From assembly GCA_947482125.1 (NCBI GenBank), contig CANKIV010000002.1, positions 1-45,738 on the forward strand: a stretch of 45,738 bases of DNA, read 5' to 3'. Each line of letters opens with the position of its first letter. The stretch's first letter is position 1. A model generated the notes under the pieces. The model ran no database searches. It worked only from the letters and a program-made list of their open reading frames with translations, and was not told where the DNA came from. The position numbers and the translations under genes were made by a program. Shown here piece by piece: positions 3,885 to 5,812 of the stretch. This DNA is from Alphaproteobacteria bacterium (lineage in GTDB: Bacteria > Pseudomonadota > Alphaproteobacteria > Micropepsales > Micropepsaceae).

Positions 3885-3973
3885 GGCCCCGTGGCGGAAC
3901 TGGTAGACGCACCGGACTTAAAATCCGTTGATCCGAAAGGGTCGTGTCTGTTCGACTCAGACCGGGGCCACCA
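3885..3973 (+). tRNA. tRNA-Leu (anticodon UAA), CCA encoded
   Basis: Acceptor GGCCCCG/CGGGGCC, D-loop TGGTAGACGC, anticodon loop CTTAAAA, long variable arm GATCCGAAAGGGTC, T-arm GTCTGTTCGACTCAGAC, 3' ACCA. Confidence 0.93.
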
Positions 3974-5561: not shown

Positions 5562-5608
5562 AAGCCAGTCTTCCAAAAGCCAGCCTTCCCAAAAGCCAGT
5601 CTTCCCAA
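5562..5608. repeat. Three tandem near-identical 15-16 bp units AAGCCAG(T/C)CTTCC(C)AA
   Basis: AAGCCAGTCTTCCAA / AAGCCAGCCTTCCCAA / AAGCCAGTCTTCCCAA read directly. Confidence 0.9.
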
Positions 5609-5615
5609 AACAAGA

Positions 5616-5645
5616 GAGGCCGCCTCCCCGAAGGGAGACGGCCTC
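5616..5645 (-). terminator. UUCG-capped terminator/attenuator-like hairpin
   Basis: Minus-strand RNA GAGGCCGUCUCCC-UUCG-GGGAGGCGGCCUC (13 bp including one U-G) followed by UCUUGUUUUG. Confidence 0.8.
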
Positions 5646-5670
5646 GCATTGTCTTACCGAGTCCGTCGCT

Positions 5671-5745
5671 TTACGCGGCGCTGGCCTTCACCAGAAGCAT
5701 CCAGTTCGCGGTCCTCGACGTCCGCAGGTCATGACAATGAGACAC
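5671..5745 (-). CDS. Putative 24-aa leader peptide/small protein MSHCHDLRTSRTANWMLLVKASAA
   Basis: GTG start 7 nt after AGGAGG within AAGGAGGTGATCCAG, which complements the 16S 3' tail over 15 nt. TAA stop, then terminator hairpin. Confidence 0.65.
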   Translation of the reverse strand: MSHCHDLRTSRTANWMLLVKASAA

Positions 5746-5782
5746 TGGATCACCTCCTTCTGATAGATTGTTGCAGTGCAAA

Positions 5783-5812
5783 TATAGTGCAGGGCCCTGT
5801 TTTTACAATAGA
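5783..5812 (-). promoter_or_regulatory. Candidate promoter for the leader unit (TTGTAA-N16-TATATT), approximate coordinates
   Basis: Minus strand TATTGTAAAAACAGGGCCCTGCACTATATTTGC; position fits the leader ORF. Confidence 0.4.

Follow-up and report, generated by a model that had tools for sequence, protein, structure and literature searches.

The small RNA CC2171 of Caulobacter reportedly stems from the tiling-array screen of Landt et al. in 2008, and it is listed in Rfam as a Caulobacter gene of the type "Gene; sRNA" (RF01867, "Caulobacter sRNA CC2171"). The family also appears in a list for Mesorhizobium huakuii (PMC5596092) and among the families improved with R-scape in the Rfam 15 paper (PMC11701678). 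According to Schrader et al. 2014 (PMC4117421), intergenic ncRNAs of Caulobacter go untranslated, apart from two of the earlier ncRNAs, for which translation is described. No description of a 16S-tail mimic, an ORF or a pseudoknot of CC2171 was found in the literature searched, which covered few subscription papers.

Other described systems share single features with the RNA considered here. The rnTrpL/peTrpL RNA of Sinorhizobium meliloti (PMC10117765, PMC7298713) likewise has a short ORF within a terminated small RNA in which the position of the ribosome matters. However, the leaderless rnTrpL is located upstream of trpE, whereas the present RNA has an extreme Shine-Dalgarno (SD) sequence, no downstream gene and no run of regulatory codons. 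A further S. meliloti product, SEP1 (23 aa, pI 4.18), has the top translation efficiency among unannotated sORFs (PMC10117765); with that pI it is not obviously a homologue of the 23-aa peptides found here. Long SD:anti-SD pairing at start sites is also known from extended SD initiation in Staphylococcus aureus, where it is a general feature of mRNAs (PMC13009471); here it usually belongs to one special RNA per genome that carries its own 16S mimic. Finally, the Caulobacter RNAs SisA-D also contain a stretch resembling the 16S tail, but theirs is thought to pair with target mRNAs (PMC12559287), whereas the stretch described below covaries with the SD of the same RNA.

The window, i.e., the whole stretch of DNA that was analysed, comprises 45,738 nucleotides of an alphaproteobacterial contig. 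A covariance search, which the preliminary description had suggested, finds a homology to RF01867 that is absent from that description, as is the covarying pseudoknot with a 16S-tail mimic discussed below. The match (cmscan) spans positions 5769–5617 on the minus strand and the full model (1–159 of 159) at 74.3 bits (E = 1.4e-15), as seen at a permissive threshold, since the gathering cut-off is 75 bits and the copy in the window lies 0.7 below it. Alignment and covariation place the 5′ block, the P1 stem and the terminator of the family consensus at the locus, which is almost certainly a homologue of the CC2171 family. The predicted transcript is a stand-alone RNA of ~167 nt (5607–5773, minus strand), its 5′ end being deduced from the position of the -10 box and from a conserved CAACAA. 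It would be produced from a sigma-70-like promoter (TTGTAA-16-TATATT; 5781–5808, minus strand), the -10 box of which (TATATT or TATAGT) recurs at the equivalent place in relatives. The terminator noted previously after the ORF is borne out by the sequence and is strong, with a 13-bp stem (5645–5616) and a T-rich tail (TCTTGTTTTG) forming an intrinsic terminator at 5607–5645 on the minus strand. The TTGCACTGCAA palindrome close to the -10 box was entertained, as an idea only, as a PhaR-type operator, and it is lost in distant copies. Three imperfect direct repeats (AAGCCAGTCTTCC), spaced 15–16 nt apart, occupy 5562–5614 between the terminator and the downstream gene for a thiamine-diphosphate enzyme, and one close relative has a comparable stretch after the element. 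A tRNA-Leu (TAA anticodon) at 3885–3973 is the sole RNA gene of the window above Rfam gathering scores.

Relatives scoring well under the curated cut-off are widespread in the Alphaproteobacteria. Among 41 genomes of the genus, 27 carry RF01867 homologues, with eight exceeding the cut-off. In a phylum-wide sample, 55 of 299 genomes have a match at E<=1e-3, and all 55 belong to the same class. The 75-bit cut-off thus leaves out most apparent homologues (45 of the 55 and 19 of the 27 genomes with a match). Caulobacter vibrioides is the only one of 14 well-known control genomes to match, and a scan of the collection yielded at least 120 matching stretches, including those in Bosea, Methylobacterium, Microvirga, Brevundimonas, Phenylobacterium and many others. 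One typical alphaproteobacterial copy sits on NZ_JAQGNQ010000093.1, which is filed under the betaproteobacterium Ramlibacter and is either a misbinned contig or a case of transfer. In the plasmid collection, partial matches occur on large Methylobacterium replicons (NZ_CP090580.1, 165606–165705; NZ_LR743510.1, 2300622–2300646) at places with no listed gene. A rhizobium-like copy used as the query against plasmids gave no match. Lineage labels of this kind (rhodobacter-like, sphingomonad-like, rhizobium-like, etc.) are provisional guesses.

The neighbourhood of the element is not conserved. At 60 of 95 loci the following gene lies on the opposite strand, and no family of neighbouring genes is found at more than nine of 99. 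The term "leader peptide", which had been offered earlier for the ORF product, is therefore not sustained, as there is no conserved downstream gene for such a peptide to lead. A role as the leader of the downstream thiamine-diphosphate enzyme was also discarded, as the pairing of element and gene is not conserved beyond close relatives. To judge from gene order, the element is a stand-alone, non-syntenic gene.

The most conspicuous part of the RNA is an extended SD (AAGGAGGTGATCCAG; 5745–5759, minus strand), complementary to the single-stranded tail of 16S rRNA and ending in a G that also opens the start codon. The 16S tail within the genus reads GCGGCTGGATCACCTCCTTTCTAAGG, so the contiguous 15-nt complement claimed in the preliminary description at 5759–5745 is real; in most relatives the complement reaches 16–17 nt (GAAAGGAGGTGATCCAG). 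The SD, which had been called very strong, stands out within the window, with a duplex energy against the 16S tail of -29.2 kcal/mol compared to a best value of -16.5 and a median of -10.7 among the 37 other long ORFs. The 2.4-Mb draft genome has a single occurrence of the 13-mer AAGGAGGTGATCC. Across 115 genomes of the class, the pattern AAGGAGGTGRTCCDDTG has 22 sites, 20 of which are mini-ORFs of the same kind, as opposed to a single site for the reversed pattern. The block is conserved within the genus and the class and is kept across 134 diverse, non-redundant copies. The search patterns themselves dictated much of it, so that perfect conservation there does not count as evidence, but DNA and covariance-model searches in which the SD block was not fixed recover the same block. 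Moreover, positions -16 (G in 93% of the 134 copies) and -15 (A in 94%), which the search had left free, extend the complement to GAAAGGAGGTGATCC, whereas the match is relaxed at -17 and at the base preceding the start codon. Its end near the base of helix 45 of 16S rRNA means that the conserved complement spans the single-stranded tail. The locus is also informative about the length that SD:anti-SD pairing can reach on natural RNAs. Slow clearance of the 30S subunit from so strong an SD is possible.

Two rival readings of this complement may be considered here. The first, that the locus is a fragment of a 16S rRNA gene or matches it by chance, arises because the 15-mer is the reverse complement of the 16S end. 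Its probability is negligible, since no rRNA covariance model of Rfam matches the locus, the flanks are unrelated to 16S, and the block is conserved as a mini-ORF element, with promoter, ORF and terminator kept alongside across the class. In the second, the RNA would be a non-coding, trans-acting sRNA in which the 16S-complementary stretch serves as a decoy or staller of 30S subunits, and the ORF is a mere footprint of binding. This agrees with the Rfam type and with complementarity that is kept across the single-stranded tail and relaxed just past it; it is nonetheless rather unlikely, as mere 30S binding has no need of the strongly conserved length and frame of the ORF.

This ORF (5671–5745, minus strand) has 24 codons, running from a GTG at 5745–5743 to a TAA at 5673–5671, and encodes MSHCHDLRTSRTANWMLLVKASAA. 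In copies classed as type 1, most of which carry MSHC as well as a Trp codon, the stop falls at codon 20–28 in 99 of 108 cases, compared to 13.6 ± 3.7 expected from dinucleotide shuffles; a mononucleotide-shuffle version of the test gave 97 of 99 observed against 13.9 ± 3.4. Indels in the type 1 copies come in threes, all three stop codons are in use, and the start codon varies between GTG, ATG and TTG. A CTGG[AG] motif occurs 27–56 nt from the start at many distances, yet in a single phase in 81 of 87 copies, and the stop mostly follows 25–34 nt beyond it. The ORF is thus very probably translated, in agreement with the earlier proposal.

The peptide itself shows no comparable conservation. 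The pN/pS ratio is 0.99 over 55 independent pairs (0.96 and 0.77 in the two other frames), and substitutions number 135, 151 and 122 by codon position, with no third-position excess. In other lineages the peptides are unrelated, e.g., MSHGSAxGSVQFV.. (18 aa), VSRKVLExxxGTxWEVRL (18 aa), MSYTKRCHLAGIAR (14 aa) and MSSDFVFQNVASADCTFGKQSSR (23 aa). A search of the peptide against NCBIfam and Pfam returned no NCBIfam family and no significant Pfam family. An EQP-like motif in the rhizobium-like copies (five loci) is an in-frame reading of the 16S-tail-like UGGAGCAGCC and not evidently a protein motif. Because the length, stop and frame of the ORF are conserved while pN/pS is 0.99 and lineages have unrelated peptides, what selection keeps, as far as comparison of the copies can tell, is translation to a set distance and not the peptide.

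These data also bear on the idea of a 24-aa product that is made from an unusually strong SD and functions as a small protein or leader peptide. It had at first seemed likely, given that MSHC and the Trp codon recur in most type 1 copies, and the alternation of start codons would suit it as well. However, the SD and the P1 stem account for the MSHC, and the 16S mimic accounts for the Trp codon; together with the pN/pS value, the unrelated peptides and the unconserved downstream gene, this makes such a product improbable, and a selected small protein was discarded on the pN/pS value. The earlier label "small-protein gene" accordingly survives in respect of the reading frame and fails in respect of selection on the peptide.

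Two helices are predicted to close over the start site. The P1 stem joins a 5′ strand in codons 3–5 (CATTGTC; 5733–5739, minus strand) to a 3′ strand directly before the terminator (GACAATG; 5647–5653, minus strand). Its two strands covary, with pairs such as CATAGT/ACTATG, CATGGTTCAGC/GCTGACCATG and CATTGCC/GGCAATG, and in a 29-sequence alignment the stem is 93.6% paired. Among the 41 copies with a non-consensus 5′ strand, matched strands average -10.8 kcal/mol, as opposed to -7.8 kcal/mol for strands mismatched with partners from other copies (Wilcoxon p = 2.5e-9). The second helix would form between the extended SD and a mimic of the 16S tail within the ORF (CTGGATGCTTCTGG; 5691–5704, minus strand; -14.3 kcal/mol). 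Variants of the mimic are CUGGAUGCUUCUGG at the locus, CUGGAUCCUCGCCUC in others and a UGGAGCAGCCUCC-like form in the rhizobium-like type, while the rhodobacter-like type has its mimic (CCACCUCCU) 3′ of the ORF. Likeness of the ORF to the 16S tail has a mean z of 1.26, compared to 0.16 for the reversed tail, and the mimic ends a median of 18 nt before the stop.

Double changes are seen in four of the seven SD:mimic pairs of the 29-sequence alignment, including a start-codon G-to-A change matched by C to U. Taken jointly, the two helices have 88.9% paired cells and six pairs changed on both sides in this alignment, and their covariation score exceeds all slid controls and is reached by none of 500 shuffles, although the rows are related and the shuffle controls thus overstate significance. 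The duplex between the SD and the body of the RNA beats shuffles in types 1, 3, 4 and other; the sphingomonad-like type gives a weak signal for SD:mimic pairing (z = -0.3). Applied to the full alignment, RNAalifold returns the terminator and a small hairpin only, as expected where two helices cross and the middle aligns poorly. Since the SD, the P1 5′ strand, the mimic and the P1 3′ strand alternate along the RNA, the two helices would constitute a pseudoknot over the start site, and the covariation suggests that the SD is probably masked in this way. Alternatively, the mimic could be an anti-SD-like stretch of a trans-acting sRNA that represses other mRNAs, with translation controlling its availability. 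SisA-D are a precedent, as they work via an anti-SD motif (PMC12559287), but here the mimic covaries with the SD and start codon of its own RNA, and such a repressor is a doubtful candidate, marginally behind even the small protein.

The reading slightly favoured over its negation is a ribosome-operated, bistable mini-mRNA/sRNA switch, in which the 16S mimic of the RNA would mask the start site and ribosomes would open it. In the closed state, the P1 and SD:mimic helices would both keep the 30S subunit from the start site. A free 30S would compete through the much longer SD:16S duplex, which is worth roughly double the energy gained by the mimic helix (-29.2 vs -14.3 kcal/mol). Once translating, a ribosome would sit over the mimic until termination ~6 codons past it, leaving the SD open for the next 30S, and the RNA would close when initiation slackens. 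The structure of the RNA, and hence its stability or pairing with partners, would then report the ease of initiation, and the peptide would be a by-product. Such a switch fits the conserved frame and length, the unconstrained amino acids and the absence of a downstream gene. In the rhodobacter-like type, ribosome transit would not cover the mimic because it lies after the ORF. A broader version is more tentative and at present somewhat unlikely, namely that the RNA is a class-wide device for sensing free 30S subunits or initiation capacity, which docks the whole 16S tail, is self-masked by the mimic and held open by translation, and for which the peptide is irrelevant.

In contrast to its Rfam listing, then, an RNA long recorded as a non-coding sRNA resembles a translated switch around the docking sequence of the ribosome, with a conserved ORF free of amino-acid selection, a 16S-tail mimic and a predicted pseudoknot. 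It would be a natural case in which selection retains translation rather than the peptide. Mutants of the start codon, stop codon and mimic offer directly testable predictions in Caulobacter and further laboratory alphaproteobacteria. With respect to diversity within the family, the MSHC type and the sphingomonad-like MSHGS type occur together in one genome, and for this reason the two may represent distinct subfamilies or paralogues instead of strict orthologues.
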